Shown here one piece after another: positions 12,969-35,902 of a stretch of 42,567 nucleotides of DNA (positions are counted from its first letter, which is position 1; every line of letters begins with the position of its first letter). The position numbers and the translations under genes were made by a program. The stretch spans positions 1-42,567 of the IMG/VR virus record IMGVR_UViG_3300034072_002197. One strand, written 5' to 3'. This DNA is from a virus. The notes under the pieces were generated by a model. That model was not told the DNA's origin. It worked only from the letters and a program-made list of their open reading frames with translations, and did no database searches.

Positions 12969-13055
12969 GGAGGGGGGATGTCGGAAAATTGGGGGTGTAA
13001 GGCCTCCTGACCGGTGTCGGCCAAAAATCCGCGCAAAACCACATTAAATGTCCGG
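12969..13055. other. Probable cos / packaging region of the main phage
   Basis: Non-coding stretch directly upstream of the small terminase gene, the usual place for cos in HK97-like phages. It starts with GGAGGGGGG (12969-12977), then CCTCCTGACCGGTGTCGGCC (13003-13022) and an AT-containing segment ending GTCCGG (13055). The block recurs at 19814-19900 in the nested element with the same internal spacing, 49 of 53 bases identical over 13003-13055. Repetition of a non-coding block at this position is strong support for a terminase recognition site. The exact cut is not determined. Confidence 0.7.
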
Positions 13056-15287: not shown

Positions 15288-16546
15288 GCGCGCTCAGCGG
15301 CTTTATCGATACCTTGTCCGGAATTTTTCGGCTGGGCACGCGCACTAGCGTGGAATCCGCGCCCGGCGTCGGCAGTTCGGCTGGCGAAGTAGTCAACGAG
15401 AGCACCGTCCTTTCCATCCCGGCAGTCGCCGCTTGCCTACTCATTCTTGCCGGTACGCAGGCAACCCTCCCCTTGATGGTCTATCGCCGAAACGGGACGG
15501 GCCGTGAGGCTGCAACGGATCACTGGCTCTACTCAATACTGCACGATGACCCGAACGCGGATCAGACTGCAGAGGACTTTTGGGAGTTCATGTGCGTCGC
15601 GCTGGAGTTGCGCGGCAACGCCTATGCCGAGAAGCTTCGCGGATCGATGGGGCAGATCGTCGGCCTTGATCCTATCCCGCCTTCGATTGTCAGCCGGGCG
15701 CGCCGCGCCGACGGTCGCATCGAATACCGCTGGACCTGGAACGGGAAAAGCCGCGTCGAGACGGACGAAAACATTCTGCATCTGCGAGGATTTGGCGGCG
15801 ACCCGCTTGGCGGAATGTCGACGCTGCAAATTGGTGCCGAGGCATTCGGACTAGCACGCAGCCTTTCGCGCACAGCTGCTAACGTCAGCCGCAATGCGAT
15901 GTATCCGAGCGGCGCGTGGCAGTCAGATGCCAAGATGACGGCGGAACAAGTCAAGGAGACGGAGGCGCTTCTTGCGAAGAAGTATCAGGGCGCCATCAAT
16001 GCCGGACGTCCACTGGTTATGGGCCACGGCCTGAAGTGGGAGCAGCTCACCATGTCCCCCGAGGATTTGCAGATGCTGCAGTCCCGGTCGTTCTCGGTCG
16101 AAGAAGTCTGCCGCATTTTCGGCGTTCCGCCGCACCTCATTGGTCACACCGCTGGCAATACGCAGCTTGGCAGCAGCATTACTGAACAGACCCGAGCATT
16201 TGAAAAATTTACCCTGCGTCGGCGCCTTCGCAAGATCCAGTCCGCGCTTCGCAAGCAACTGCTGACGGCAGAGGACATCGCGCTCGGAATCACCATCGAA
16301 TTTAACATGGATGGTCTGCTTCAGGGCAGCACAGCCGAGCGCTCGGCATTCTACAAGTCCGCCCTCAGCGACAAGTGGATGGTGATCAACGAGGTGCGCG
16401 GGAAAGAGAACCTCGCACCCGTGCCGTGGGGCGACGAGCCTATCGTGCAGCAACAGGACCGCCCCCTCGGGCAACAGATCGAGGAGTTGGCGCAGCAAAT
16501 GGGCGCGCTTACGCAGAGAGTCGAGGAGTTCCGCCACCGTGGATAG
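15284..16546 (+). CDS. HK97-family portal protein
   Basis: 420 aa, length normal for HK97 gp3-type portals. Diagnostic segments include VVNESTVLSIPAVAACLLI near the N-terminus, LRGFGGDPLGGMSTLQ and the strongly conserved EVCRIFGVPPHLIGHT near residue 280. The ATG overlaps the terminase stop (ATGA). The portal forms the dodecameric DNA entry ring and binds the terminase. The C-terminus is Gln/Glu-rich (QQQDRPLGQQIEELAQQ). Confidence 0.94.
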   Translation: MSALSGFIDTLSGIFRLGTRTSVESAPGVGSSAGEVVNESTVLSIPAVAACLLILAGTQATLPLMVYRRNGTGREAATDHWLYSILHDDPNADQTAEDFWEFMCVALELRGNAYAEKLRGSMGQIVGLDPIPPSIVSRARRADGRIEYRWTWNGKSRVETDENILHLRGFGGDPLGGMSTLQIGAEAFGLARSLSRTAANVSRNAMYPSGAWQSDAKMTAEQVKETEALLAKKYQGAINAGRPLVMGHGLKWEQLTMSPEDLQMLQSRSFSVEEVCRIFGVPPHLIGHTAGNTQLGSSITEQTRAFEKFTLRRRLRKIQSALRKQLLTAEDIALGITIEFNMDGLLQGSTAERSAFYKSALSDKWMVINEVRGKENLAPVPWGDEPIVQQQDRPLGQQIEELAQQMGALTQRVEEFRHRG

Positions 16547-17192
16547 AACCAAGAACAGCGGCTTCGCGCTCGACGTGAAGGCGGTTGGCGATGACGGTGC
16601 AATCGCCGGGTACGCCTCAGTTTTCAACGTGGTCGACAGCTACCGGGAGTTGGTTCTCCCAGGCGCCTTCAAGGCGTCTCTCGCTGACTCCAAGAAGGCG
16701 AAGCGCTCGATCAAAATGCTGTACCAGCATGATCCCTATCAGCCGATCGGCGTCTGGGACGTGGTGCAGGAAGACACCAAGGGCCTGCACGTCGAGGGCC
16801 GCCTGCTTAAGGACGTCTCGCCGAAAGCCGCCGAGGTCTACGGTTTGGTCCGCGAAGGGGCGATAGACGAGCTTTCGATCGGCTATCGCGAGATCGAGAC
16901 GGTCAAGATGCCGAACGGCCTTGGCCTCAAGAAGCTCGATCTCAAGGAGGTCAGCATCGTGACCTTCGGCGCGCTCGGTCGCAACGCGCATATCGACGAA
17001 ATCAAATCCATTCTCGCCCGAGGCGAAATGCCCACGGTCCGTGAATTCGAGGAGTTTCTGCGGGACGCAGGTGGCTTCTCGAAAAGCCTCGCTGTCGCAA
17101 TCGCGGGCAAGGCTGCGCCGCACCTTCGGGGGGATCCCGAAGCCCAGGCAGACGACGAAATGCTCAAGTTCCTGAAGGCCTTGGGCGCCTGA
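16539..17192 (+). CDS. Prohead protease 1 (HK97 gp4-like, S78-type)
   Basis: 217 aa from GTG 16539, GAGGAG upstream. S78-family features: H64 in LYQHDPYQPIG and S113 in DELSIGYREIE, with SIVTFGALGRNAHI following. It would remove the N-terminal scaffold domain of the capsid protein during prohead maturation. It overlaps the portal gene by 8 bp and precedes MCP1. A homologous gene is present in the nested element at 20443-21075. Confidence 0.93.
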   Translation: MDRTKNSGFALDVKAVGDDGAIAGYASVFNVVDSYRELVLPGAFKASLADSKKAKRSIKMLYQHDPYQPIGVWDVVQEDTKGLHVEGRLLKDVSPKAAEVYGLVREGAIDELSIGYREIETVKMPNGLGLKKLDLKEVSIVTFGALGRNAHIDEIKSILARGEMPTVREFEEFLRDAGGFSKSLAVAIAGKAAPHLRGDPEAQADDEMLKFLKALGA

Positions 17193-17221: not shown

Positions 17222-18457
17222 ATGAAAAAGAATGCCCTTTACGGCGCACTTCGCGCCGCCGGTGCCTATGGCATCATGACCAAGAACGAAGCGCGCCTCG
17301 GCCGCTATATCCGCGACGGCGAAGGTCACCCGACTGGCACCAAGTCGGTTGAGCAGTTGGCCGACGATCTTCGCAAGTCGATCGATGCCAAGCAGGCCGA
17401 AGTCCTCAAGAAGGCAGACGAAGCCCTTACCGAGGCAAAGACTGCGGGCTCGCTGTCGGCCGAGACGAAGAAGTCGGTCGACGAGATGCTGACTGGCGTG
17501 AACGTCATGCGCGAGCAGCTGAAGGCGCTCGAACAGAAGATGGCGCGCAAGCCCGGCGAGGGCGAGGACGAGGTCAAGTCCTACGGCGGCCAAGTGATCG
17601 GCAGCGATCGCTTCAAGTCGTATCTCGACAATGGCGCGCAGGGCACGATCAAGTTCGAACTCAAGGATTCGAACCGCGTCAAAGCGATCACCGCGGCTCA
17701 GGCAGCCGCATGGAGCGAACGCGATCCGACGATCACCTCGCTGCCGCAGCGTACGCTCACCATTCGTGATCTACTCACCGTGGTTCCGACCTCTGGCGGC
17801 AGCGTGGACTATGCTCGCCAGACCACCCGCACCAACAATGCGGCCGTCGTTGCGGAAGGCGCGACCAAGCCGACCAGCGCTTACATCTGGGAGCAGGTGA
17901 ACGCTCCGGTTCGCGTGATCGCACACCTTGCCAAACTCACCCGGCAGGCGCTCGAAGACTCGGCGCAGCTGCAGGGCGAAGTTGACAGCGAGATGCGTTA
18001 TGGTCTGGCACTCGCTGAAGAAGGCGAACTGCTTACCGGCGACGGTACCGGACAGCACCTCACCGGCATCAACACCAACGCCACCGCGTTCGCTGCAGCG
18101 ATCGCAATCGTCGGCGCCACCGAGATCGATGTCATTCGCCTTGCCCTGCTCCAGGCAGAGCTCGCTCTCTATCCGACAGACGGCGTCGTCCTGAACCCGG
18201 CCGACTGGGCCGCGATCGAGATGACCAAGACGACCGACGGTGCATACATCTTCGCGAACCCGATGATGCTTGCCGGGCCGCGCCTGTGGGGCAAGCCGGT
18301 CGTCTCCACGCCAGCACAGACGATGCGCAAGTTTACGGTGGGCGGCTTCAAGCTGCAGACCCTCTACGACCGCATGGCCCCCGAGGTCGTCATTGCATCC
18401 GAGAACTCGGATGACTTCGAAAAGAATCTTTACACGGTGCAACGCGAAGTTGCATAA
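17222..18457 (+). CDS. Major capsid protein 1, C-terminus replaced by the nested insertion
   Basis: 411 aa HK97-fold capsid protein. Residues 1 to about 120 form the helical scaffold region with a long Lys/Glu/Ala coil. The body includes RNTNNAAVVAEGA-like and LAEEGELLTGDGTGQHL segments. It matches MCP2 up to EKNLYT, but then ends VQREVA instead of continuing. The missing 29 codons of the family C-terminus (MRCEERVAL... LIYGDF) are found at 28027-28113, behind integrase 2. The last codons 18436-18457 belong to the inserted element. The truncated protein lacks a strand region shared with MCP2 and may not assemble. Excision would restore a 434-aa protein in frame. Confidence 0.93.
   Translation: MKKNALYGALRAAGAYGIMTKNEARLGRYIRDGEGHPTGTKSVEQLADDLRKSIDAKQAEVLKKADEALTEAKTAGSLSAETKKSVDEMLTGVNVMREQLKALEQKMARKPGEGEDEVKSYGGQVIGSDRFKSYLDNGAQGTIKFELKDSNRVKAITAAQAAAWSERDPTITSLPQRTLTIRDLLTVVPTSGGSVDYARQTTRTNNAAVVAEGATKPTSAYIWEQVNAPVRVIAHLAKLTRQALEDSAQLQGEVDSEMRYGLALAEEGELLTGDGTGQHLTGINTNATAFAAAIAIVGATEIDVIRLALLQAELALYPTDGVVLNPADWAAIEMTKTTDGAYIFANPMMLAGPRLWGKPVVSTPAQTMRKFTVGGFKLQTLYDRMAPEVVIASENSDDFEKNLYTVQREVA
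18428..18435 (+). other. Left attachment core (attL) of the nested element
   Basis: CTTTACAC, codons Leu-Tyr and part of Thr of the capsid gene, identical to 28018-28025. The match extends leftward as AGAA plus one mismatched base. Sequence to the left is helper capsid gene and to the right is element. The core is in the same codon phase at both ends. Confidence 0.82.
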
Positions 18458-18480
18458 AACCTAGCGTTTTCAGCACTTTA

Positions 18481-18503
18481 GGGGCCTTCGGGCCCCATTT
18501 TTT
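18481..18503 (+). terminator. Rho-independent terminator just inside the element
   Basis: GGGGCC-TTCG-GGCCCC forms a perfect 6-bp GC stem with a stable TTCG tetraloop, followed by ATTTTTT. It lies 24 bp after the truncated MCP1 stop and would end helper late transcription inside the element's left edge, separating helper head genes from downstream genes while the element is integrated, unless antitermination overrides it. Confidence 0.85.
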
Positions 18504-18601
18504 GCGCAATTCCGCTTTCCCCATCCACCCCCGTGAAAACCGCAGTTTTCCGCCACTTTTGAAAGCGTCCCGGCTGCTCTGTTGCGCAACAGTTGCGCAA
18601 C
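18502..18601. promoter_or_regulatory. TTGCGCAA palindromic sites, left arm of the element
   Basis: TTGCGCAA occurs at 18502-18509 and twice in tandem as GTTGCGCAAC (18581-18590 and 18592-18601), 11 bp apart, about one helical turn. The last is followed by GG, giving TTGCGCAACGG, which recurs identically at the right end (27973-27983). The tandem pair ends 20 bp before the ATG of the excisionase-like gene, so it could serve both as autoregulatory operator and as recombination arm site. An inverted repeat GAAAAC/GTTTTC (18535-18550) lies between. Confidence 0.6.
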
Positions 18602-18621
18602 GGTCGGGCAAGGAGACCACC

Positions 18622-18843
18622 ATGGCCGAAGTCAACGAAGAGTCCCGCGCGGACCTGCTCTATGGCGTTCCTGCGATCGCCGCTCACCTCGGGCTGACCG
18701 ACAAGCAGGTCTATCACATGCGCGATCGGGACAAGCTGCCGACGTTCAAGATGGGCGGCAAGGTCTGCGCTCTGCGCTCTGCGCTGGCGAGGCACTTCGC
18801 CGACCTCGAAGCCAAGGCAACCGCAGGGAAGGTCGACCAATGA
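18622..18843 (+). CDS. Excisionase-type helix-turn-helix protein of the nested element
   Basis: 73 aa from ATG 18622 (AAGGAG 6 nt upstream). The frame extends upstream through the arm sites, but only this start has a proper ribosome-binding site. An HTH_17/excisionase-like fold at residues 12-60: LLYGVPAIAAHLGLTDKQVY, then LPTFKMGGKVCALRSAL. Proteins of this type bind DNA as excisionases or regulators of element genes. It is the first gene inside the left end and is coupled to the next gene (ATGA). Confidence 0.8.
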   Translation: MAEVNEESRADLLYGVPAIAAHLGLTDKQVYHMRDRDKLPTFKMGGKVCALRSALARHFADLEAKATAGKVDQ

Positions 18844-19046
18844 CCGCGCTGATACAGATACCGCACCGCGCCAAGCTGCGCGCGGTACTGGTGAAGCGCT
18901 CAGGCACCGGTTGGCGCGTCGGGATAGGATCGGTCCTGTCAGGGGCCTTCGAGGCCGACAGCACCGGTTACAGCAACGAGCGCCAAGCCGAAACCGCAGC
19001 GCTTCGCCTGGCTGATGCGCACGACCTGATGGCGCTGCAGGATTGA
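18840..19046 (+). CDS. Small hypothetical protein of the element
   Basis: 68 aa, ATG 18840 overlapping the previous stop. Basic N-terminal half (IPHRAKLRAVLVKRSGTGWR) and an acidic, Ala-rich C-terminal helix (AETAALRLADAHDLMAL). No recognised domain. The coupling to the HTH gene supports expression. Confidence 0.6.
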   Translation: MTALIQIPHRAKLRAVLVKRSGTGWRVGIGSVLSGAFEADSTGYSNERQAETAALRLADAHDLMALQD

Positions 19047-19052
19047 GGCCAG

Positions 19053-19171
19053 TGTCGCAACTGTCGCAACTGTCGCACCTTGCTCCGTATATCCCGCAAA
19101 CGCTGGGCTTCCGGCCTGCTGTCGCAGAGTCGTGCGACAGCGCCTGCGACAGCGCGGCAAGGGCCGCGACA
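19053..19171. repeat. Seven-copy TGTCGCA / TGCGACA array of the nested element
   Basis: Direct copies start at 19053, 19062, 19071 and 19120. Inverted copies start at 19133, 19145 and 19165 (CGCGACA). The pair 19120/19133 forms a perfect 7-bp dyad with a 6-bp spacer. Offsets are 0, 9, 18, 67, 80, 92, 112, nearly those of the main-phage array. It fills the gap before the HTH gene at 19171, whose ATG overlaps the last copy, so it may be that gene's operator or part of an origin. Confidence 0.72.
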
Positions 19172-19533
19172 TGAGCAAGGAAGCGGTGGAATGGGCCGCC
19201 CGCATGATCCCAGACAACCCGCCTGACAAGCTGGTGCTGTGGTGCATCGCGCACTGCCACAACAAGGGAAGCGGCATCGCCTATCCGTCGGTCGCTGCGA
19301 TCATGGCTTTCACCGGCTATCGGCGCACGGCGGTGCAGGAAGCCCTGACGCGCCTGCACAAGGCAGGCTTGATCCTCGACACCGGCGACAGGCGAGGACG
19401 TACCGGACAGGTTAAGGTCTGGGCCCTTCCTCTGTCCGAACCGATCGGCAAGGCCAAGCCTGCGCCAGTCCGAAAGGATGCATCTGATGCACCCTTGGAC
19501 CCTGATGACCCAGCCGCCGACCGAGAGTTCTAA
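19171..19533 (+). CDS. Helix-turn-helix replication-type protein of the element
   Basis: 120 aa from ATG 19171 (AAGGG upstream). A winged HTH of the HTH_36 type, as in the N-terminal DNA-binding domain of phage replication initiators, spans about residues 20-90: AYPSVAAIMAFTGYRRTAVQ, EALTRLHKAGLIL. The C-terminus is short, acidic and Pro-rich. No helicase-loading domain is visible, so it may be only the DNA-binding part of an initiator. Position between the TGTCGCA array and three iterons supports a replication role. It could also be a plain repressor. Confidence 0.7.
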   Translation: MSKEAVEWAARMIPDNPPDKLVLWCIAHCHNKGSGIAYPSVAAIMAFTGYRRTAVQEALTRLHKAGLILDTGDRRGRTGQVKVWALPLSEPIGKAKPAPVRKDASDAPLDPDDPAADREF

Positions 19534-19665
19534 GGGTCCGCTAGACGGCTTCTTAGCCAGTGCAAAGGGTCCGCTAAACGCACCCTTAAAGGGTCCGCCA
19601 AACGGACACGGAACTATATCTATAAGAGATACCTAAGCTGCACCGTAGTGAAACGTAGGTGCAGC
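19532..19665. repeat. Iterons, AT-rich segment and inverted repeat: candidate replication origin of the element
   Basis: Three direct repeats of AAGGGTCCGCYARACG lie at 19532-19547, 19565-19580 and 19589-19604. The third overlaps a perfect palindrome ACCCTT-A-AAGGGT (19582-19594). Next is an AT-rich run around 19611-19635 (ACTATATCTATAAGAGATAC). GCTGCACC/GGTGCAGC (19637-19644 and 19658-19665) closes the region. Iterons beside an initiator-type gene plus an AT-rich unwinding zone are the usual makeup of an origin. The rest of the 509-bp gap (19534-20042) holds no credible gene, only the cos-like copy. Confidence 0.6.
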
Positions 19666-19813
19666 GTTGATAGGTAGCGCGTGCGCGAGAGGCGTGTCGC
19701 TCACCTTGTGGCGGCTCCACGCGCAAGCTCTGCCACGACAGGACAGGGCAAGGTCGATGGACGCTCCGCTCGCTTGCGCGGCGTCGCTCCGCGCTTGGCA
19801 GATGGATAGCCGG

Positions 19814-19900
19814 GGAGGGGGGTGGGAGCAAAATGCGCCGCCCCAACCCTCCTGACCGGTGTCGGCCTGAAACTCGCGCAAAACCACATTAAATGTCCGG
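19814..19900. other. Copy of the helper cos-like region inside the element
   Basis: GGAGGGGGG (19814-19822), then an AAAAT at the same internal offset as the helper copy. CCTCCTGACCGGTGTCGGCC (19848-19867) is identical to 13003-13022. The final 33 bases differ at four positions and end in the same GTCCGG. Both copies have 34 bp between the starts of the G-rich block and the CCTCCTGACC block. No terminase gene follows here. A helper packaging signal in an element without terminase is the hallmark of packaging parasitism. Confidence 0.75.
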
Positions 19901-20042
19901 GCTTGCCTATTCTGGCTCCGGCCGCCGCGCTGCAGATTGGCCAATCTGGCGCAATCAATCTGCAAAAGCGTCAATTTCAGGTCCGCATCGGTCAGGGGCC
20001 CGATGCTCCCCCATTTTCCACCACCCCCCCGAAGGAACGACC

Positions 20043-20300
20043 ATGTCGAGCGAAACGATGTTTGAATCCGGCACCCTGACGCCTGAGCAGTACGAGCAGT
20101 CCACCATGGTGCAAGGCGAAGTCCTAGCGCTGATGAAGGGGCTGGTGCGTGAGGGCGTAGACTACCGAATTGTATCGGTGGGCGTCTCTACCGCGCTCGC
20201 GGACATGATTTCATCCATCTGCGGGGCAGGCGCGGTGCCGGTGCACTTCGCGCGCCTGTCGGCCTACACGATGCACCTGGGGCCGCCGCGCACGAACTGA
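20043..20300 (+). CDS. Small hypothetical protein between cos copy and protease 2
   Basis: 85 aa from ATG 20043 with AAGGAA 7 nt upstream. The frame extends upstream through the cos-like block, but that part is not coding. No recognised domain. It includes a Glu-rich N-terminus (TLTPEQYEQSTMVQGEV) and a helical middle. It occupies the place that terminase and portal genes hold in the main phage. A role in redirecting packaging is possible but only by position. Confidence 0.6.
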   Translation: MSSETMFESGTLTPEQYEQSTMVQGEVLALMKGLVREGVDYRIVSVGVSTALADMISSICGAGAVPVHFARLSAYTMHLGPPRTN

Positions 20301-20349
20301 GCGCGCTTGCAAATCGTCCAATTTCACCGTATTGGTTTGCTCGTTGGAA

Positions 20350-20397
20350 GCGCGGGTGTCCGCGCGACCGCACCGACTTTCTCGCGGGTGTCCGCGC
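20350..20397 (+). repeat. Two copies of a 15-bp palindromic repeat upstream of protease 2
   Basis: CGCGGGTGTCCGCGC at 20351-20365 and 20383-20397. Each copy folds as CGCGG-GTGT-CCGCG (extended to GCGCGG/CCGCGC in the first, 20350-20365). They lie in the 142-bp gap before the head genes of the element and could be RNA hairpins or operators for the head module. Confidence 0.5.
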
Positions 20398-20442
20398 CGG
20401 TCGGCTGGAAAACGAGCAATGCTCGACAGTCGAGGTGTGCGC

Positions 20443-21075
20443 ATGAACCACGTAAGCTCCCCATTTGAAATCAAGCAATTGTCCGACGGCGGCCAGATTG
20501 AGGGCTTGCTCGCCGGATTTGGCAACGTCGACAGCTACGGCGACGTCATCCAGAAGGGCGCATTTTCGCGAACGCTGGCTGCGCGTTCGCGGCCACTCCC
20601 GATGCTGTTGCAGCACGATATTACCCGACCAATCGGGGTCTGGACGCAATGGCAGGAATCGGACGCAGGTCTCCACGTAAAAGGGGAGATTGTCCTTGGC
20701 ACGCAGGATGGCCGCGAGGCCCATGCCTTGGCGAAGGCCGGGGCGCTGACCGGTCTCTCGATCGGCTATCGCGAGGTCAAAGCTGCGAAAAATCCGCAGA
20801 CGGGCAACCGGGATGTTTTCGAGATTGACCTGTTCGAGGGCAGTCTCGTGACCTTTCCGGCCAACCCATCCACATACTTGGACAGCGTCAAGTCGATTGG
20901 CGCCCCCAGCGATATCGAGGCCCTGCTCCGCGCAGGGGGGCTGTCTGGCCGGCAAGCAAAGGCCGCTGCCAGCGCAGCATGGAAAGCCTTCAACACACTT
21001 GGCGATGACGCAGCCGTACAAGCCGAGATGCGCGAGATTTTTGACCTGTCCGCCGCTCGGATTGCGGCTCTCTGA
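20443..21075 (+). CDS. Prohead protease 2 of the nested element
   Basis: 210 aa from ATG 20443 (GAGG upstream). The frame upstream is open but covers the repeats. S78-type catalytic residues are present: H58 in MLLQHDITRPIG and S106 in LTGLSIGYREVK. The FEGSLVTFPANPS segment corresponds to the VSIVTFGALG region of protease 1. The two proteases are clearly homologous but diverged, so this is not a recent copy. It should mature MCP2, which follows 14 bp downstream. Confidence 0.9.
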   Translation: MNHVSSPFEIKQLSDGGQIEGLLAGFGNVDSYGDVIQKGAFSRTLAARSRPLPMLLQHDITRPIGVWTQWQESDAGLHVKGEIVLGTQDGREAHALAKAGALTGLSIGYREVKAAKNPQTGNRDVFEIDLFEGSLVTFPANPSTYLDSVKSIGAPSDIEALLRAGGLSGRQAKAAASAAWKAFNTLGDDAAVQAEMREIFDLSAARIAAL

Positions 21076-21089
21076 AAAGGACGATGACC

Positions 21090-22313
21090 ATGAAAAAGAA
21101 TTCCATTTTCCGCCCTGCGCTCGGTCCCATGACGGCCAATGAGCGCCGCCTCGGCCGCTATATCCGCGACGGCGAAGGCCACCCTGCCGCTTTGACCAAG
21201 CAGTTCACCGACGCAGTAGAAGCGAAGCTGTCTGCGCTGAGTGACGGCGTGAAGACCGCGCTCGACAAGAGCGGCACACTCGACGTCATGCGCGAGCAGC
21301 TGAAGGCGCTCGAGCAGAAGATGGCGCGCAAGCCGGGGCCGAGCGGTGAAGCCGTGGCGCCCTCTTGGGGCAGTCAGCTGGTCGAGGCGAAGGCCGCTGA
21401 GATCCATGCGCTCAAGGACGACCGCAAGGGGCGCGTCCAGATGCAGTTCAAGACCGCCCTCACCTCTGCGACGTCCGATGCTCCGGGTTCCGCCGGGGGC
21501 CTGCTTGTCCCCGGTCGAGATGGACTGGTTGGCATGGCCCGTCGGCGGCTGACGATTCGCGACCTGCTTAACGTCATTCCGGTCACGACCGGTTCGGTCG
21601 AGTATCCGCGCCAAACCGGTCGTACCAACAACGCCGCGGTTGTAGCGGAAGGCGCGAGCAAGCCAGAATCGGACCTCAAGTACGATCTCGAAACCGTTCC
21701 GGTTCGCACGATAGCGCACTGGCTGAAAGCGTCTCGCCAGATTTTGGACGATGCTCCGCAGCTGCAGGGCGAAGTCGACAGCGAACTGCGGTATGGCCTC
21801 GCTCTCGCCGAGGAAGGCGAACTGCTCACCGGCGACGGCACCGGCCAGCATCTGTTCGGGATGATCCCGCAAGCAACGGCTTTTGCTACCTCGGTTTCGG
21901 TCTCAAACATGACCCGCATCGATGCAATTGGTCTTGCGATCCTTCAGGCGGCACTCACCGATGTAGAGCCCGACGGCATCATCATCCATCCGGCGGATTG
22001 GTGGGCCATTCGTTTGACCAAGAATGCCGACGGAGACTACGTCTTTGGCCCTCCGGGCACTTCGGTTATCCCTTCGTTGTTCGGACTGCCGCTGGTGCCG
22101 ACGAAGGCCATGGCCGCAAACAAGTTCCTCGTCGGAGCATTTAAGGCGCAGACCTTGTATGATCGCTGGGAAGCGCGCGTCGAAGTCGGATTTGTGGACG
22201 ACGATTTCACGCGCAATCTTGTGACCATCCTCGGAGAAGAGCGGATCGGCTTCGCGGCCAAGCGCCCCGAATCCCTAATCTACGGCGACTTCCTGTCGAT
22301 CCTCGGCGAGTAA
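21090..22313 (+). CDS. Major capsid protein 2 of the nested element
   Basis: 407 aa, HK97 fold, intact. ATG 21090 gives an N-terminus (MKKNSIF) matching MCP1 (MKKNALY), with AAAAGG 9 nt upstream. The scaffold part is shorter than in MCP1 but shares ERRLGRYIRDGEGHP and MREQLKALEQKMARKPG. The body shares LAEEGELLTGDGTGQHL. The end NLVTILGEERIGFAAKRPES then LIYGDF aligns without gaps to the MCP fragment behind integrase 2. At the position equivalent to the attachment core it reads CTTGTGAC rather than CTTTACAC, so it should not be a target for integrase 2. Confidence 0.93.
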   Translation: MKKNSIFRPALGPMTANERRLGRYIRDGEGHPAALTKQFTDAVEAKLSALSDGVKTALDKSGTLDVMREQLKALEQKMARKPGPSGEAVAPSWGSQLVEAKAAEIHALKDDRKGRVQMQFKTALTSATSDAPGSAGGLLVPGRDGLVGMARRRLTIRDLLNVIPVTTGSVEYPRQTGRTNNAAVVAEGASKPESDLKYDLETVPVRTIAHWLKASRQILDDAPQLQGEVDSELRYGLALAEEGELLTGDGTGQHLFGMIPQATAFATSVSVSNMTRIDAIGLAILQAALTDVEPDGIIIHPADWWAIRLTKNADGDYVFGPPGTSVIPSLFGLPLVPTKAMAANKFLVGAFKAQTLYDRWEARVEVGFVDDDFTRNLVTILGEERIGFAAKRPESLIYGDFLSILGE

Positions 22314-22320
22314 CGGAACA

Positions 22321-22395
22321 CGGCTGGCATCATCCCCCCTGCCAGCCGGGGAGCATAGGCGGCGCGCAGAAATCTCCGGTGGGCTGCGCGCCGCC
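22321..22395 (+). other. Two strong hairpins between MCP2 and TMP1
   Basis: CGGCTGGCA/TGCCAGCCG (22321-22348, 9-bp stem) and GGCGGCGCGCAG/CTGCGCGCCGCC (22358-22395, 12-bp perfect stem). Neither has a T-tract, so they are more likely mRNA processing, stability or attenuation elements than simple terminators. They occupy the place where head-tail connector genes would lie in a complete phage. Confidence 0.55.
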
Positions 22396-22418
22396 GCTCC
22401 GAACAGAAGGAATTGACC

Positions 22419-24905
22419 ATGACAACCCTTATCGGTGCGCTTCGCGTCACGCTCGGCCTCGACAGCGCAGCGTTCGAAAAGGGCGCCAGCGCTGTTGAAA
22501 AGCGCGCCAAGGGCATGGTGCGAACCGTCGAGGCTCATGGCAAGGCCATGACTGACCTCGGCAAGACCATGTCAGTAGCCGTCACCGCGCCCCTCGTTGC
22601 GTTTGGCGTGAAGTCCGTGCAGGCGGCAATGGAGTCTCGCGACGCCATGGGCCAGGTCGAAGCCGCGCTTGCGAGCATGGGGTCGGCCGCCGGGCGCACT
22701 TCAGATCAGCTTGCCGCGATGGCTGGCAACTTGATGCACAACTCGCTCTACGACGATGACGACATCCTCAGGAAGGTGACCGCTAACCTCCTGACGTTTG
22801 GCAACGTTGCGGGGGAACAGTTTGACCGGGCGCAGCAAGCTGCAGTCGATCTTGCAGCGCGTATGGGGATGGACCTGCAGGGTGCGACCCTGCTCGTGGG
22901 CAAGGCGCTGAACGACCCCATCAAGGGCATGGGCGCGCTACGCAAGGCCGGCATCCAGCTTACCGAGCAGCAGCAGCAGCAAATCAAGGCTATGGTCGCG
23001 GTCGGCAATGCGGCTGGGGCGCAGAAGGTGCTCTTGTCCGAGCTCGAGAAGCAGTTCGGTGGCAGCGCGGCAGCCGCGCAAAAGGCAAACCCGTTCGACA
23101 CTCTCAAGGATTCGGCGGCTGACTTCATGGAAGCGGTCGGGGGCCAGCTTCTCGAGATCCTGCCCAACGTTACGGCTGCGCTCACCAAGGTTATCGACGC
23201 GTTCGGTGCGCTTTCGCCCGCCATGCAGCAGGGTGTGGTCTATGGCGGGTTGCTGGCGACCGCGCTCGGCCCTGTTCTTACCATAATGGGCGCGATCACG
23301 ACCGCGACCGCGCCATTTACCGGAACCCTCGCAGCGATCGCGTCGGAACAAGGTGTCTTGGCGGCTGCGCGCGCCGGGTTCATCGGCCTTGGCGCTGCGA
23401 TCGGACCAATGCTTGCGCCGCTCGCAGCGGTCGGCGCGGCGGGCTACATCATCTACCAGAACTGGGACAAGATCGGCCCCGTAGTGTCCGACCTTTGGGC
23501 CTCGATGCAAGCCGCGCTCGGTCCGCCCCTACAAGCATTGATTTCGAACCTGACGGCGACACTCACCGAACTCTGGAACGGCCCGTTGGGCGAAAGCCTG
23601 CGCCAAGTGATCGGCCTGATAGGTGACCTTGTGGTGTGGCAGGTCAAGGCGTTCGGGCCGGTGTTCATCGCGCTCTTGCGCAGCGTGGTGGACGTGGCCG
23701 GCGGCGTACTCAGCGCGATCGGCGATGCCCTGAAGGCAGTGTCTCGATTGCTCCAGGGCGATTGGGCCGGCGCATGGGAGGCGGCAAAGAGCGCTGCGGT
23801 CAACGCGTTCAAAGCGATCAATGCGGTTTTTCTGGGATTGCCCGGCTTTGTCGCTGACGTACTAATGCGGATGGTCGGCGCTGTGAATGAGTGGATCGGC
23901 GGGAAACTCAACGCAATTTGGGAAAGCGCTGCGCACAAGATTGAGTGGGTAAAACAGCAGTTCTACGACCTGTATGACGCTGTCGTCGGTCACTCCTACA
24001 TTCCAGACATGGTCGATGGCATCGCAGCGCAGATGCTCCGCCTCGACGGCGTCATGGTCGACAAAGCTGAAGCAGCTACAGCAAAAACTAAGGCGGCCTT
24101 CCAGAAGCTGGCCGAAGAACTACAGCCGCTGATGGCGCGCCTGTTTCCTGAGGCTGTCGCGCTAAACGAGTACCGGGACAATCAGAAGACATTGGACGCG
24201 GCGCTCAACAGCAAGGATCCCCGCGTCAAACTGTCGCAGTCTCAATATGACGAGGCCAAGCGTCGGCTGCATCTCGACGGTGCGGGCCTTGATCCGACTG
24301 CTCCGCTCGGCCCCAGTGCGATCGAGGGCATCACTTCGGGCCCGATTGTGGTCGACATCGACAAAATCAATGCAGGCTTGGACCGTCTGCGCGAAACCAC
24401 GACCGGAACATCGGGGCAGGTGGGCGTGGCAACTGTTCGCATTGCCCAATCCTTCAAGGATATGGCCGACGCGACGTTGAACTCGCTTCAGAACATGGCT
24501 AGCGCAATCAAGGGCGGCGGCTTCCTTGATATCTTGGGCGCTGTAATCGGCCTAGGCCTGCAGATCGGCAGCGTCGGGGCTTTCGGGAAGGGCCTTCAGA
24601 CGAGGCTCAACAGCACGCCGAACACTACGCCGACGATTCCGCAGTATGCCAACGGCACAAACTTTCATCCTGGGGGGTGGGCAGTCGTCGGCGAGCGCGG
24701 GCCTGAAATGGTCCATCTCCCAAGAGGCTCTGCGGTGACACCAAACGAGCGACTTGGTGGCAGCGTAACCAACAACTTTACCGGCAACCTTCTGACGCCG
24801 GAATTCTGGGCCCAGATCAACACCGGGCACGCTGTTGCCGCGCAAGCTGGCGGCGAGCTGGGATATCGCAAGGTGGTCAGCAAGGGGCGGAGGCGGCTGG
24901 CATGA
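22419..24905 (+). CDS. Tape measure protein 1 of the nested element
   Basis: 828 aa from ATG 22419 (AGAAGG upstream; an in-frame TTG at 22413 is not favoured). A siphovirus tape measure with an N-terminal helical region, hydrophobic central segments (about residues 275-460) and a C-terminal tail-tip motif (GNLLTPEFWAQINTGHAVAA). Residues 3-265 differ from TMP2 at only about ten positions, and the last 40 residues are nearly identical, while the middle diverges. Tape measures set tail length and bind chaperone and tail tip through their ends, so the protein looks compatible with helper tails. No tail chaperone or major tail gene accompanies it. Confidence 0.9.
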   Translation: MTTLIGALRVTLGLDSAAFEKGASAVEKRAKGMVRTVEAHGKAMTDLGKTMSVAVTAPLVAFGVKSVQAAMESRDAMGQVEAALASMGSAAGRTSDQLAAMAGNLMHNSLYDDDDILRKVTANLLTFGNVAGEQFDRAQQAAVDLAARMGMDLQGATLLVGKALNDPIKGMGALRKAGIQLTEQQQQQIKAMVAVGNAAGAQKVLLSELEKQFGGSAAAAQKANPFDTLKDSAADFMEAVGGQLLEILPNVTAALTKVIDAFGALSPAMQQGVVYGGLLATALGPVLTIMGAITTATAPFTGTLAAIASEQGVLAAARAGFIGLGAAIGPMLAPLAAVGAAGYIIYQNWDKIGPVVSDLWASMQAALGPPLQALISNLTATLTELWNGPLGESLRQVIGLIGDLVVWQVKAFGPVFIALLRSVVDVAGGVLSAIGDALKAVSRLLQGDWAGAWEAAKSAAVNAFKAINAVFLGLPGFVADVLMRMVGAVNEWIGGKLNAIWESAAHKIEWVKQQFYDLYDAVVGHSYIPDMVDGIAAQMLRLDGVMVDKAEAATAKTKAAFQKLAEELQPLMARLFPEAVALNEYRDNQKTLDAALNSKDPRVKLSQSQYDEAKRRLHLDGAGLDPTAPLGPSAIEGITSGPIVVDIDKINAGLDRLRETTTGTSGQVGVATVRIAQSFKDMADATLNSLQNMASAIKGGGFLDILGAVIGLGLQIGSVGAFGKGLQTRLNSTPNTTPTIPQYANGTNFHPGGWAVVGERGPEMVHLPRGSAVTPNERLGGSVTNNFTGNLLTPEFWAQINTGHAVAAQAGGELGYRKVVSKGRRRLA

Positions 24906-25168
24906 TCGAACAACAAGATACCGTTCCCGCGCCTGTGTTTCAGGCGCTGGCGATGGCATTCTACTGCCTTCACGACACGCTCGTATCCAAAGGGGCGCTC
25001 GACGAGGGCGAGGTGGGGTACAATCTCAGCAGAATGAGGTCAGACGACCCGATGTTCGCTGAGACACTTCAGCGCATTCGCAACAACCTAGATTCGATGC
25101 CGTTCCGGCCACAATCGGGACCATCTCTGCGCTTGGTCGAGACTAAGGAGGCAGGTGACAATGGCTAA
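24902..25168 (+). CDS. Small hypothetical protein downstream of TMP1
   Basis: 88 aa, ATG overlapping the TMP1 stop (ATGA). Soluble, helical, acidic. The equivalent position after TMP2 holds an unrelated 196-aa tail gene that also starts ATGATCGA, suggesting a recombination joint at the end of the tape measure genes. Function unknown. Confidence 0.62.
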   Translation: MIEQQDTVPAPVFQALAMAFYCLHDTLVSKGALDEGEVGYNLSRMRSDDPMFAETLQRIRNNLDSMPFRPQSGPSLRLVETKEAGDNG

Positions 25169-25670
25169 GGTTCTTCGCGTCGTCGCCGTAGTTGCGGGCG
25201 CAGTGGCGATCGCCGTTCCCGGCCTGCAGGCGCTCGCTCCTGCGCTCATATCAGCAGGCACTGCATCCACCATTGCCACGATAGCCAGTGTGCCCGCGAC
25301 ATTGTCCGCGCTGGGCGTTCAACTCATGAACGAAGGAAATTCCCATGACCCTACAGAACGGATTCGTGCAGGCTGGCGAAGTTCGCCTCTACTCCGACAC
25401 GGCTTGGATATGCCCGGAGACTGGCGCGGTCGCGGCTTTCTTCCCAAAGGGCTTTGTCTCGCAGAACGTAGTGTTTCCCTATGCGGTAATCACGACCATG
25501 ATCGGGCCAGGCCAGTGGCCGAATCCCATGGAGCACATCGTCACGCAGGTGAACTTGGACTTGCCAGGCAACACCTCAGAGCTTCTCGATTGCCTCGCTG
25601 GATTCGCCAAGTCTTACGCGCGATCGGGAGGCCTTTGCCGCATCCTCGCGGCTTCGTTCGGGTCGAGTGA
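25155..25670 (+). pseudogene. Fragment of a tail-tip (J-like) gene
   Basis: The first 57 residues (MAKVLRVVAVVAGAVAIAVP...) match the N-terminus of the tail-tip protein at 35903 (MAKVLRGIAVVAGAVALFVP), including the ISAGTATTIATVAS-type segment. After about 25325 similarity stops and the frame merely shadows the next gene. A good AGGAGG ribosome-binding site is retained, so a short peptide may still be made. This looks like the remnant of a deletion that removed about 590 codons of the tip gene. Confidence 0.65.
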
Positions 25671-26018
25671 CGAGCGACCGCGGCTGCATTTCATCGCGTC
25701 CGACGATTCCGATTTCGCTAGGGGCTTCGAACCCATCGAATGCTCTCCTATGTGTCCTCGCACAACACCTCGCCAACATACTTGCATGCGATGTCTCAGG
25801 GCGGCTTCAATCGACAGCGCATGCTCAATCAGATCGACTCGCAGCGGTTGAGCAAGTTGTCGGCGGCTTGCGCCTTGGGTGAGGTGCATGGCGTAGGTGG
25901 GGAGGTGATGGAGATCATCGTCAGACGCGAAGGCGTTTCTGAACAGATCGTGCGAGTTTGGAACGACCGCCTCGATTGCCCCATCGATCCTAGCCGAGAC
26001 GAAGTCCTTACGGCCTGA
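25345..26018 (+). pseudogene. Tail-region hypothetical gene split by a frameshift
   Basis: ATG 25345 with AAGGAA upstream encodes a protein-like sequence (WICPETGAVAAFFPKGFVSQ ...). Near 25735 it switches to a Cys/Arg-rich shadow and ends at 25851. The sensible sequence continues in the -1 frame (25740-26018: MLSYVSSHNTSPTYLH... RVWNDRLDCPIDPS). One missing base in GAAATGCTC would explain it. It may be a true mutation, a sequencing error, or two coupled genes, since the second frame has an ATG. No equivalent exists in the main-phage tail region of this window. Confidence 0.55.
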
Positions 26019-26036
26019 GCTGCAGGCAGCGCCCTA

Positions 26037-26056
26037 CCTCCCCGGTTAAGGGGAGG
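26037..26056 (+). terminator. Hairpin after the frameshifted gene
   Basis: CCTCCCC-GGTTAA-GGGGAGG, a perfect 7-bp stem beginning 18 bp after the stop at 26018. There is no clear T-run, so termination is plausible but uncertain. The 26019-26351 gap has no credible gene. Confidence 0.45.
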
Positions 26057-26098
26057 CTTGCGCTTATGCGTCTGTGAGGGCAATGTCGTCCGTGGGCC

Positions 26099-26343
26099 TG
26101 AGAAACCCGGACCAGTGATAGCGAGTGGACCCGTTGGCGCGGTATCCGTTCGCGAATGCGAGCTTGGCGGCTCGCCTGAGGCAGCGCTTGGCGGCGCGCC
26201 CACTTCGGCTATGTAGCCGGGGGCGGCGCGCTATGTCCAGAGCGAAAGCTTAAAGGCGCGTCGGCTTGTCTCACTGGCAGGTTTCTCACCCCCGGCGATC
26301 GCCCGAAGCGGTCAACGGCCCTGAGAAAGCCGTCAACCAGTGA
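26099..26343. repeat. Three copies of a TGAGAAA...CCAGTGA composite motif
   Basis: TGAGAAA followed by CCAGTGA after 6 bp (26099-26118) and 8 bp (26322-26343), and an inverted copy with 4 bp between halves (TCACTGG...TTTCTCA, 26271-26288). They lie in the gene-free stretch upstream of the 26352 gene. They may be binding sites for an element regulator; spacing between halves is variable, which weakens the case. Confidence 0.35.
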
Positions 26344-26351
26344 GACCAAAC

Positions 26352-26726
26352 ATGTTCTATACCCCAAATTCGCCGCCCAGAGGCCCGACAGAGGCCGCTG
26401 GCGATTTCGTGGCGCGTGCACTGCCTCTCGGAGTGCCTGACAGGCCTGAAATCGCCGCGCTAGGCGAAAGCATCCTCTGCACCGCCGAATACGTCGGCTC
26501 GCTCGGCGAAGCCGTCCTGCTCTGCCTCGAAGAACTGCCCATCGAGCAACGCGGCGACAAGGTGCACCTCGCGGTCAGCCTGCTCAACCTGCTCGACGAT
26601 CAGGTGCGAATCCTGTTCGACCTCGCGGGCAAGGTAGAAGTCGCAGGTATGGAGCGCGCCGCGACCGATGCGGCGCTGTCCGACTGGATGGCCCTGAGTC
26701 CGGCAGGCACGGCCCCCTCGAAGTAA
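26352..26726 (+). CDS. Hypothetical protein next to integrase 2
   Basis: 124 aa from ATG 26352 (a GTG at 26340 would add four residues). Helical and acidic (AALGESILCTAEYVGSLGEA, then SLLNLLDDQVRILFDLAGKV), no recognised domain. A strong hairpin separates it from integrase 2. No good ribosome-binding site is seen at either start, so the start is uncertain. Confidence 0.6.
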   Translation: MFYTPNSPPRGPTEAAGDFVARALPLGVPDRPEIAALGESILCTAEYVGSLGEAVLLCLEELPIEQRGDKVHLAVSLLNLLDDQVRILFDLAGKVEVAGMERAATDAALSDWMALSPAGTAPSK

Positions 26727-26733
26727 GGCAGAC

Positions 26734-26761
26734 GTCCCGGCCGGGTTCGCCCGGTCGGGAC
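26734..26761 (+). terminator. Very stable 12-bp hairpin with TTCG loop upstream of integrase 2
   Basis: GTCCCGGCCGGG-TTCG-CCCGGTCGGGAC, twelve pairs including one G-T. It has no T-tract, so it may be a termination signal helped by other factors, or an mRNA barrier. It ends 17 bp before the integrase ATG and could insulate integrase 2 from readthrough of the head and tail genes. Confidence 0.5.
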
Positions 26762-26778
26762 AAGCACTGGAGATCAAC

Positions 26779-28014
26779 ATGGCAAGCGTGAGCAAACGCA
26801 AGTGGACCCACAAGGGCGTCGCGAGTGAGGCGTGGGTTGTGCGGTATGTGGACCGTGCCGGGAAGCAACGCTCGAAGCAATTCGACCGCAAGAAGGATGC
26901 GGACAACTACCGCACCAAGGTCGAGCACGAAAAGGCGGAGCGCGGACACATCGGTTATGTCGAGGTCAAGTCCGTCGCTGAGATTGCAAAGGCTTATGGC
27001 GCCCATGTCGATCGTCGCCTTGAAGATGCTCAGATTAAGCGCGGAACACACAAGAACATCGTGCAGGCGCTTCGCACCTCGATCCTTCCCCGGCTTGGCA
27101 AGATGCGCATTGAGGACGTCACCGCCGACCTGTGCGAGCAGTGGTTCACCGCGATCCGTTCGGAAGATGGACTTGCCGCCAAGACTGCGCAGGAGCGACT
27201 GGTAAAGCTGGGAGCAATGTTTGACTTCGCGATGCGGCGCAAGTTCGCGAGGTCTAACCCGGCTCGCGAGGCCCTGGCCAATATCGGCGGCATCAAGGCC
27301 AAGAAAATCAGGATACTCTCGCGCGATGAAATTGCAGCAATCCTGCGGGCGGCGCAGAAGCGCCGCCCCGGTCAGCATCGAAGCACGTGGCTGATGGCGA
27401 ATTGCGCGATTAACCTTGCGGCTTTCTCTGGCCTACGGTGCGGTGAAATTCTTGCCCTCCGCCTTGCAGACATCGATCTGGAGCGTCGCGTTGTGCACGT
27501 GAGGCACACGATCAACGCATGGGATGAACTCACATCTCCTAAGACCGAAAGCAGCCGACGTACTGTGCCTATCCCGGCGCACGTCGCCTCCATGCTGCGC
27601 GACTGGATTAGGGAGTATTACGTTCCCAATGACCGAACCCTCGTGTTCCGCGCGTGGCGAACACAGAACGGCAAGAGGGGAGGGGCAATTTCCATCTCGA
27701 ACTTCAACTCGGGTTACTGGCGACCTGTCACGGCTGCAGCCGGGATGGACCGGCCCGACGATCATATTCACTTCCATGCGCTGCGGCACTTCGCCGCGAG
27801 CTGGTGGCTGAAAAACCAAATGCCAATTCCTGAGGTTTCCGAACTTATGGGCCACGCCAGCCCGCAGGTAACATTGTCGATTTACGCTCACGCCATGGCT
27901 GACGATCGGGAGCGTGGCGCAGCGGTCGAGACGATGGCGCAAGCGTTCATGGGTTCACACAGTGCGCAAGAATTGCGCAACGGCCAATTTCTCTTGGAAA
28001 ATCAAGCGGCTTAG
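26779..28014 (+). CDS. int: Tyrosine integrase 2, integrase of the nested element
   Basis: 411 aa with GGAG before ATG 26779. It has an N-terminal arm-binding region with SKQFDRKKDADNY, a core-binding SAM-like domain (about residues 65-155) and the catalytic domain with R220 (SGLRCGE), K255 (SPKTESSRR), H333-x-x-R336 (HALRH), H359 (LMGHAS) and Y369 (SIYAH). All catalytic residues are present. It is not of the P4 type and is unrelated in layout to integrase 1. Its stop lies 3 bp before the attR core, as usual for integrases flanking their site. It should insert the element into CTTTACAC of the capsid gene. Confidence 0.94.
   Translation: MASVSKRKWTHKGVASEAWVVRYVDRAGKQRSKQFDRKKDADNYRTKVEHEKAERGHIGYVEVKSVAEIAKAYGAHVDRRLEDAQIKRGTHKNIVQALRTSILPRLGKMRIEDVTADLCEQWFTAIRSEDGLAAKTAQERLVKLGAMFDFAMRRKFARSNPAREALANIGGIKAKKIRILSRDEIAAILRAAQKRRPGQHRSTWLMANCAINLAAFSGLRCGEILALRLADIDLERRVVHVRHTINAWDELTSPKTESSRRTVPIPAHVASMLRDWIREYYVPNDRTLVFRAWRTQNGKRGGAISISNFNSGYWRPVTAAAGMDRPDDHIHFHALRHFAASWWLKNQMPIPEVSELMGHASPQVTLSIYAHAMADDRERGAAVETMAQAFMGSHSAQELRNGQFLLENQAA
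27962..27983. promoter_or_regulatory. TGCGCAA sites, right arm of the element
   Basis: GTGCGCAAG (27962-27970) and TTGCGCAACGG (27973-27983), the latter identical over 11 bp to the left-end site at 18593-18603. They lie inside the integrase 3' end, 35-56 bp from the attR core. Matching sites at both ends are expected of integrase or excisionase arm sites on attP. Confidence 0.55.
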
Positions 28015-28017
28015 AAC

Positions 28018-28025
28018 CTTTACAC
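28018..28025 (+). other. Right attachment core (attR) of the nested element
   Basis: CTTTACAC identical to attL. Immediately to the right ACACC-ATGC-GGTGT (28022-28035) forms a perfect inverted repeat spanning the core edge on the capsid-gene side, as often seen at tyrosine recombinase core sites. Confidence 0.82.
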
Positions 28026-28116
28026 CATGCGGTGTGAGGAGCGCGTTGCCCTGGCGATCAAGAAGCCCGGCGCACTGATCTACGGCGACTTTGACGCTGC
28101 GCTCGCGGCTGGTTGA
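28018..28116 (+). pseudogene. Separated 3' end of the main-phage major capsid gene
   Basis: In the capsid frame this reads LYT-MRCEERVALAIKKPGALI... ending YGDFDAALAAG and stop at 28114-28116. It aligns without gaps to the MCP2 end (ILGEERIGFAAKRPESLIYG). It has no start codon or ribosome-binding site of its own. Joined at the CTTTACAC core to the 5' part at 17222-18427 it gives a 434-aa capsid protein. Confidence 0.88.
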
Positions 28117-28170: not shown

Positions 28171-28461
28171 ATGGCCAAGACGGTCGATTATCTCGTCGCC
28201 CGCGAACATCAGGGCGACCGCCTAACTGAAGACGGCTCAGAAGTGCATCGCTTCATGGAAGGCGAAATTCGCAAGGCCGATCCCGCCATCGTCGCCAACC
28301 TCGTGAAGTCCGGTGTCCTCGTGGCTCCGAACGAAACGGAAGAGGAGGACGAACCGGTGGAGGAAAAGTCCGATGCTGCTCCTGCAAACAAGTCCGAGCC
28401 CGCCCCCGCGAACAAGGCTCAAGGCAAAGCTCCTGCCAACAAGTCCAAACCAAAGGACTGA
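28171..28461 (+). CDS. Hypothetical head-region protein with Ala/Pro/Lys-rich tail
   Basis: 96 aa, AGGAG 8 nt upstream. An N-terminal ordered part (DYLVAREHQGDRLTEDGSEV) is followed by an acidic stretch and an APANKS-type repeat at the C-terminus (PANKSEPAPANKAQGKAPAN). Proteins of this build often follow the capsid gene in siphoviruses. The function is unknown. Confidence 0.65.
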   Translation: MAKTVDYLVAREHQGDRLTEDGSEVHRFMEGEIRKADPAIVANLVKSGVLVAPNETEEEDEPVEEKSDAAPANKSEPAPANKAQGKAPANKSKPKD

Positions 28462-28502
28462 AACCCTAAGGCGCTGCGGCGCCGATATAAGGAACCTTTA
28501 TT

Positions 28503-28874
28503 ATGCGTCGTTTCAAGCTGACCGTCACCACGGCCGCCGATGGCACCGCAACGGCCTACACGCCTCGCCTTACCGGCAAGATCCACCAGATCGAGTACGT
28601 CAAGGATGGCTCGAACGCCTACACCGATGGCGTCGACTTCACGATCACCGGCGAAGCAACCGGCGTGGGCCTCTGGACCGAAGCCAACGTCAACGCCTCG
28701 GCAGTTCGCGCGCCGCGCATGCCGACTCACTCGCAGGTGGGTGTTGCCTCGCTTTTCGCCGCTGGCGGCACTGCCGTTCAGGTGCCGGTCGCACTCGCCA
28801 ACGACCGCGTCAAGATCACCCTCGCACAGGGCGGCAATGCCAAGGTCGGTGTGTTCCACATTCTCGTGGATTGA
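28503..28874 (+). CDS. Hypothetical head protein, possible decoration or head fibre
   Basis: 123 aa, AAGGAA 9 nt upstream. Beta-rich, with VGVASLFAAGGTAVQVPVAL and NAKVGVFHILVD. Position between capsid and connectors is where decoration or head-fibre genes sit. Assignment is by position and composition only. Confidence 0.6.
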   Translation: MRRFKLTVTTAADGTATAYTPRLTGKIHQIEYVKDGSNAYTDGVDFTITGEATGVGLWTEANVNASAVRAPRMPTHSQVGVASLFAAGGTAVQVPVALANDRVKITLAQGGNAKVGVFHILVD

Positions 28875-28970
28875 TCACCGCGGACCGGGGGGGCTCAACT
28901 CCCCCGCTTCCGAGAGCGCCGCTGCACTGTTTAGCGCGACGGCTCTCTCGCAAGCGAAAGGCCTTGATGG

Positions 28971-29878: not shown

Positions 29879-29879
29879 C

Positions 29880-30305: not shown

Positions 30306-30308
30306 AGA

Positions 30309-30716: not shown

Positions 30717-30718
30717 AC

Positions 30719-35899: not shown

Positions 35900-35902
35900 T
35901 CG

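Follow-up and report, generated by a model that had tools for sequence, protein, structure and literature searches.

The window analysed here, the complete virus record IMGVR_UViG_3300034072_002197 with its 42,567 bases, contains a prophage whose major capsid gene is cut by an element of about 9.6 kb. We consider it very probable that this element is a phage satellite, integrated site-specifically in the 3' part of the capsid gene of its host prophage (hereafter the helper), that its integrase belongs to a clade preferring bacterial attachment sites (attB) in virion and packaging genes, and that its excision would repair the interrupted gene. The analysis was carried out on sequence only; the position of the element, its attachment core, the restored gene, the recurrence of the arrangement, the gene content and a match to the segment upstream of the helper terminase are all directly supported. 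Satellites embedded in their helper are known from the helper-embedded phage-inducible chromosomal islands (HE-PICIs) published in 2023, with 11capE of E. coli NRG857c as the type (PMC10111431). What is apparently new is an independent integrase lineage, an integrase placed at the other end of the element and a tape-measure gene.

The interrupted capsid gene

The capsid gene, the element and the helper late genes all run on the plus strand, to which the coordinates below refer. The 5' part of the helper major capsid gene (MCP1, 17222-18457; Phage_capsid, PF05065; intact homologues in loci L002 and L022/L042) comprises 402 codons, LYT and six foreign codons: it reads ...DDFEKN-LYT, the 402 codons and LYT spanning 17222-18436, and continues with VQREVA into a stop. 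The translations agree with the initial annotation, in which the protein ended after NLYT in six foreign residues and its remainder lay behind an integrase. This 3' part, the last 32 codons with the stop (28018-28116), is 96% identical over 24-26 residues to intact relatives. The two joints are identical over an 8-bp core, CTTTACAC, placed at 18428-18435 on the left and at 28018-28025 on the right. The two copies stand in the same codon phase. Deletion of the 9,590 bp from one core to the other restores a capsid gene of 434 aa with the ending ...EKNLYTMRCEERVALAIKKPGALIYGDFDAALAAG, just as had been proposed from the first inspection.

Comparison with related phages had been expected to reveal an uninterrupted homologue, and two are present. 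In a viral contig (L002, 69% identity) the capsid gene is whole with the predicted ending ...EKNLYTMRCEERVALAIKKPGALVYGDF..., and a homologue (38% identity) of the next window gene, 28171-28461, comes after it; a second whole capsid gene, found in a bacterial genome (L022/L042), is 96% identical over 26 residues of the tail fragment. An 8-bp identity alone is weak, and it is the uninterrupted capsid genes of the relatives that raise the joint above chance. Without its last 29 residues, the cut capsid protein is expected to be inactive, because relatives show 96% identity across most of this stretch. An ACACC/GGTGT inverted repeat, described earlier as flanking the core, sits to the right of the 8-bp block and has no symmetry around the core. 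It was rejected as an integrase site, as L002 reads ACACC...GCTGT, and is probably plain capsid coding sequence.

Recurrence of the integrase beside cut virion genes

The tyrosine integrase of the element (26779-28014; PF00589, phrog_1 and trees), whose gene reads into the right joint, belongs to a clade of 26 distinct members, 22 of which adjoin a cut virion or packaging gene. This recurrence supports the earlier proposal that a separate element with its own integrase sits inside the capsid gene of the helper.

Single-protein scans of the viral contigs gave no close relative of the integrase and no match to the element's own capsid protein (MCP2). Against genome contigs the window integrase matched one locus at 29% identity, and its best-ranked match in 50,697 phage records was likewise 29% identical. 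Among 397 genomes searched from a single family, to which a Sphingomonas genome matched earlier belongs, 16 had an integrase match at E 1e-30. Two of these matches were clearly closer than the rest (41% and 38%), and they (G141/L020 and G233/L021) group with the window integrase in a tree. The alignment of the three integrases led to 24 loci among the viral contigs, of which L047 and L054 are, by length and position, repeat contigs, while L064 was counted with L059 and L067 with L060 on the grounds of a common junction sequence. From a plasmid search (E 1e-25; seven records), the Azospirillum and Lichenicola members were added to the clade at 35-37% identity, and the other five records, matching at only 27-29%, were taken no further. 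The Azospirillum carrier is A. brasilense 2020WEIHUA_K, where the integrase adjoins a portal gene of lambda type. The total of 26 includes a second integrase inside L046. Most members come from the viral-contig collection, and those of known host belong to Alphaproteobacteria. A three-row integrase profile found nothing at E 1e-60 in 385 genomes of the class; a 22-row profile gave matches in 2 of 388 genomes of the phylum and 5 of 385 of the class, with a generic integrase of G001 scoring 6e-64, like three others, and only G720 (5e-72), at a contig end, standing out.

Capsid or capsid-like genes are the target in eight cases (the window, L044, L045, L046 twice, L053, L061 and L065, the L061 family phrog_771 being a virion structural protein by name), large terminase genes in five (L021, L051, L056, L057 and L060/L067), portal genes in four (L058, L062, L063 and Azospirillum), head protease genes in three (L020, L050 and L052) and minor tail genes in two (L059 and L066). 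These assignments were made with PHROG and Pfam; the right fragments in the window, L020, L044 and L058, which have no PHROG match, were assigned by alignment to relatives. Outside the 22 stand the circle L048, L055, which lies at a portal gene start and was left uncounted, L049 and the Lichenicola member. From this distribution, a short piece of a virion or packaging gene would serve as attB for most integrases of the clade. Sister integrases often have the same target (the capsid end in the window and L044, the protease in L020 and L052, the portal in L058 and L062, the tail gene in L059 and L066); the sisters L056 and L063 have different ones. At L053:8692-11215 two integrase genes stand in tandem, the first of them outside the clade.

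Both gene halves were found for 13 members, and joining them at a core of 7-14 bp restores the frame. The cores measure 14 bp in the right element of L046, L052 and L065, 11 bp in L044, L063 and L066, 10 bp in L058, 8 bp in the window, L020 and the left element of L046, and 7 bp in L051, L059 and L067. The 7-bp cores are provisional, because by rough arithmetic a chance match of this length has about an even chance of occurring in the searched windows; the split genes are independent of the cores. The cores fall in FFGVP of portal proteins, in YIWQPG and DWARIE of capsid proteins and in the stretch before GN of the ClpP-like protease, all of which we take to be conserved motifs. In G141/L020 the gene cut is that of a ClpP-like head protease, both halves are present and the frame is restored by the 8-bp core TGGACGTT, but not by a longer repeat of 19 bp that lies on the element's side at each joint. 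In the right part of the ClpP-like gene the match to PF00574 begins at position 118, a few residues past the joint, and a published HE-PICI site lies at position 110 of the same profile (PMC10111431). The G233/L021 element runs into a large terminase gene (phrog_15) whose first part lies beyond the contig, and no left joint was found in L021, L045, L049, L050, L053, L055, L056, L057, L061 or L062, several of these contigs ending first.

A probable packaging segment common to element and helper

A cos-like segment of the element (19848-19900), with a putative packaging function, is 92% identical over 53 bases to helper 13003-13055. The helper segment falls between the HNH gene and the small terminase gene, upstream of the latter, and is a probable packaging (cos) site; cos sites often lie between an HNH-type gene and the small terminase gene. 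In an unselected test, the DNA preceding the large terminase gene (up to 700 bases; gene starts hand-set from tblastn) was taken from 11 helpers and scored against 12 elements. An embedded element was the best match in seven of the 11 helpers, against a chance expectation of about 1 in 12, with best and next scores of 86 vs 32 in the window, 82 vs 43 in L044, 67 vs 36 in L046, 124 vs 38 in L051, 84 vs 35 in L063, 52 vs 39 in L020 and 91 vs 42 in L059. Such cognate matches are as expected of a common packaging site, and the presence of the terminase-upstream segment in both partners is suggestive of mobilisation of the element by its helper.

Gene content and common plan of the elements

The 14 complete elements, the 13 two-sided ones and the circle L048, fall into two size ranges, 9.5-10.9 kb and 15-20 kb. 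Each of them has an AlpA-like open reading frame (ORF) as its first and the integrase as its last. HTH_17 matched five of nine AlpA-like proteins scanned, an extra one from L065 included, and one of these matches was above the cut-off; the extra L065 gene (L065:9587-9802) lies directly before the integrase and stands besides the one at the left end. Ten of the 13 elements searched (L020 was left out) have a PF05065 capsid gene of their own, and L048, L059 and L066 have none. The tape-measure scan, which left out L044, both L046 elements and L052, gave a match in the window and in eight of nine long ORFs from other elements, the ORF of L067 having none. Near the right end, at a distance of 53-61 bp, 9 of the 14 elements have a doubled 11-bp repeat; near the left end 7 of the 14 have one, at 154-210 bp (a further left-end repeat, at 37 bp in L065, was left uncounted). 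Such a repeat occurs in 0-11% of interior windows.

In the window element, the probable left arm site is the doubled 11-bp repeat GTTGCGCAACA/GTTGCGCAACG at 18581-18602, recognised as a sequence repeat. The AlpA-like helix-turn-helix protein (18622-18843) has a weak HTH_17 match below the Pfam cut-off and, with homologous first ORFs in the other complete elements, is a probable excisionase or regulator. It is followed by a replication-initiator-like gene (19132-19533; PHROG replication initiation families), whose start is unsure, with an ATG at 19171, by unknown small ORFs and by the element copy of an S78-type head maturation protease (20332-21075, start unsure; PF04586, phrog_80). Behind these come the element's own major capsid protein MCP2 (21084-22313; PF05065, phrog_10) and its own tape-measure protein (22413-24905; PF06791 and PHROG tape measure). 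Both genes are related to their helper counterparts, the two tape-measure genes aligning over about 1.7 kb at 80% DNA identity in blastn. A stretch of apparent remnants lies between the tape-measure and integrase genes. Within it, a 171-aa ORF (25155-25670) has no PHROG or Pfam match, its start resembles by eye that of the helper gene at 35903, and it is an apparent captured remnant of that gene. The probable right arm site, an imperfect doubled 11-bp repeat AGTGCGCAAGAATTGCGCAA at 27961-27980, emerged from repeat comparison; run with its own thresholds, the repeat finder reports nothing at this position. The scanned ORFs of the window element include no recognisable portal, large terminase, connector or major tail gene, and the absence of a full virion gene set among them is that of a phage satellite.

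Four of the other loci have features of their own. In L046 (with L069 and L070; G781) one capsid gene lies in three pieces, two elements of 15,181 and 15,863 bp occupying two sites in it, and each of the two carries its own capsid gene. On the basis of its 70-bp terminal repeat, the contig L048 was treated as a 10,355-bp circle, with the AlpA-like end coming after the integrase. A circle would be expected of an excised element or of packaged DNA; a tandem array could assemble alike. A tape-measure gene is also present in L048, as is an ORF that partially matches tail-fibre proteins; the PF05065 search was negative in it. The 16.8-kb L058 element (with L074; G791) interrupts the portal gene of its helper and has a portal gene itself, besides capsid and tape-measure genes and, by eye, a terminase-like ORF. 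The L066 element (with L078; G799) cuts a minor tail gene and has a whole homologue of the same gene aboard.

Relation to HE-PICIs, cf-PICIs and P4

The HE-PICI survey covered Enterobacteriaceae, and only among Enterobacterales did the top integrase matches have phage surroundings; the terms 'alphaproteobacteria', 'sphingomon' and 'tape measure' are absent from the main text of the paper (PMC10111431). Our literature search, with preprints and most subscription journals outside its scope, gave only PMC10111431 on such satellites and no report of the present variant; a review (PMC11389934) lists that paper among its references.

In its way of life the window element is, judged from its position, a helper-embedded satellite, lying inside a late prophage gene in the same orientation and disrupting it, like a HE-PICI, without replacement sequence. 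The two kinds also have in common a capsid gene of their own, an AlpA-type gene, a packaging-type segment found in the helper as well (258 bp at the cos position in 11capE; PMC10111431) and sites in terminase, portal, ClpP-like protease, capsid and tail genes. In HE-PICIs, however, the integrase and AlpA genes form the upstream end and are followed by Bro, replication and late zones, whereas in the window the AlpA-like gene comes first and the integrase last. With the integrase at the downstream end, the attachment site of the present elements lies between the integrase and the AlpA-like gene; read as a circle, the two genes adjoin in both 11capE and the present elements. The AlpA-type protein is HTH_17-like in the present elements and Phage_AlpA in HE-PICIs, and the tape-measure gene of the former has no counterpart term in the main text on the latter (PMC10111431). 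HE-PICIs have a doubled TGTATTGC on both sides of attP; an exact search did not find TGTATTGC in the window, which has a different doubled 11-bp repeat.

The integrases set the two kinds further apart. The window integrase falls outside the HE-PICI integrase clade, its identity to the 11capE integrase (the one published HE-PICI integrase used in the clade tests) being 21.7% over 286 residues (E 0.005), and Arm-DNA-bind_3 (PF13356), present in the latter, is absent from the three clade integrases scanned. In a first tree the 11capE integrase groups with that of P4 and with the helper's own integrase of the window (98/97), the 26 clade members standing apart (97/95); in a second, the clade together with three other sphingomonad integrases from the family search splits from nine P4-type integrases (100/100). 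In the approximately unbiased (AU) test, a single clade with 11capE was not rejected (p 0.158, 34 rows) before P4-type integrases were added. After the addition of six, p fell to 5e-64, a value overstated since it also splits 11capE from a close relative; with the added integrases, 17 clade members, 11capE and its nearest phage relative as one clade were rejected at p 1.2e-5. Because the clade of the window splits from the 11capE and P4-type integrases in the trees and the AU test, we conclude, with moderate certainty, that the taste for prophage late genes arose twice, in independent integrase lineages.

Two further kinds of satellite invite comparison. Capsid-forming PICIs (cf-PICIs) are satellites with their own head genes, and the window element resembles them in its protease and capsid genes; these are, however, the only head genes recognised in it, and a complete set would include portal and terminase. 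The L058 element, with its portal and capsid genes and the terminase-like ORF, comes nearer to a cf-PICI. P4, also of about 10 kb, has paired arm repeats by its attachment site as well, and doubling alone is therefore no mark of the clade. P4 has an AlpA-type regulator and integrates apart from its helper, and its integrase groups with that of 11capE, not with that of the window.

Proposed life cycle and alternative explanations

In the lysogen, the helper would be unable to make a full capsid protein. Upon prophage induction, the integrase and the AlpA-like protein may excise the satellite and so repair the capsid gene, and the copy of the helper packaging site on the freed circle could allow the helper terminase to cut and package it. 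The particles would use the portal, connectors and tail of the helper, while the protease, capsid and tape-measure proteins of the satellite would be available and may build or alter them. In the analogue 11capE, excision after mitomycin C has been measured (PMC10111431). Beyond the single element, we lean, with some reserve, towards a second and unrelated integrase lineage specialised on prophage virion genes, whose satellites carry replacement parts and the packaging site of their own helper, lock the helper until they exit and then travel in particles that are partly their own.

Several observations weigh against the main interpretation given at the outset. The viral-contig collection favours prophage settings; of the four members from whole-genome and plasmid searches, three (G141, G233 and Azospirillum) adjoin cut phage genes and Lichenicola does not. 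L049 adjoins an apparent IS66 transposase fragment (by eye, without PHROG match), and the Lichenicola member, possibly an off-target insertion, adjoins no phage gene. Nine of the 22 targets are one-sided, with the right half only, and three of the two-sided cores have only 7 bp. The cognate element was not the best match in four of the 11 helpers: for the L058 helper the best was the L065 element (73), for the L065 helper nothing exceeded 30, for the L066 helper the best was the L059 element (68), which has the sister integrase, and for the L067 helper the L051 element (51, its own scoring 40). The window is an isolated virus record, and the excision of its element is a prediction. Finally, the published analogue 11capE gave no detectable virions (PMC10111431).

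An insertion that has permanently disabled the prophage, a dead end in the sense of domestication, appears unlikely to us: the capsid gene is cut and its lost codons are not replaced at the attachment site, yet the element has both of its cores, and the reading frames of the integrase and of the other scanned helper virion genes are open. The protease, capsid and tape-measure genes and the apparent piece of a tail gene do follow phage order, as they would in a decayed second prophage or a prophage within a prophage that later lost genes, a history made improbable by the recurrence of the same compact plan in 14 complete elements with different helpers and by the 10,355-bp circle. Habitat, late-gene orientation, the AlpA-like protein, the doubled end repeats and the own capsid gene would all suit a HE-PICI in the strict sense, that is, the published integrase clade spread to other bacteria, and with fewer P4-type outgroups the joint clade was not rejected (p 0.158); given the 21.7% identity to the 11capE integrase, the absence of Arm-DNA-bind_3 and of exact TGTATTGC, and the rejection at p 1.2e-5, we find this quite improbable. 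The window being a single contig, an assembly artefact could in principle have joined two phages, which is scarcely credible when independent assemblies, among them two whole genomes (G141 and G233) and a plasmid record, have the same configuration.

If the window's clade is indeed a separate integrase lineage that took to prophage virion genes for its attachment sites, embedding in the helper is a repeated satellite solution and not an enteric oddity. The elements and their helpers form natural pairs for comparing target site, integrase and packaging segment, and they raise the question why such satellites carry a tape-measure protein of their own.

Helper genes and further observations

The window prophage has genes for a repressor, an HNH endonuclease, both terminase subunits, portal, head protease and capsid, as well as for connectors, major tail, tape-measure and tail fibre proteins. 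The small terminase subunit (13067-13468; phrog_83, a weak match) is followed by the large subunit (13428-15287; phrog_9), the portal (15284-16546; PF04860) and the head protease (16539-17192; PF04586); behind the capsid gene, the stretch 28171-37834 includes the connectors, major tail, tape measure and tail fibre, and six genes and the tape measure were scanned there for families. Scans of the window for tRNAs and Rfam families gave no match.

The plasmid member of Lichenicola cladoniae (L082:14995-16218) lies between an antirepressor gene and a damage-inducible mutagenesis gene. Small ORFs before the integrase recur by position in the window, L020, L044, L058, L063 and L065; many are acidic by eye and several are mutually related, the window ORF (26340-26726), which has no PHROG or Pfam family, being without a blast relative among them. 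The helper's own integrase, at 1-1410 of the window, falls among the P4-type integrases, to whose lineage the published HE-PICI integrase also belongs.

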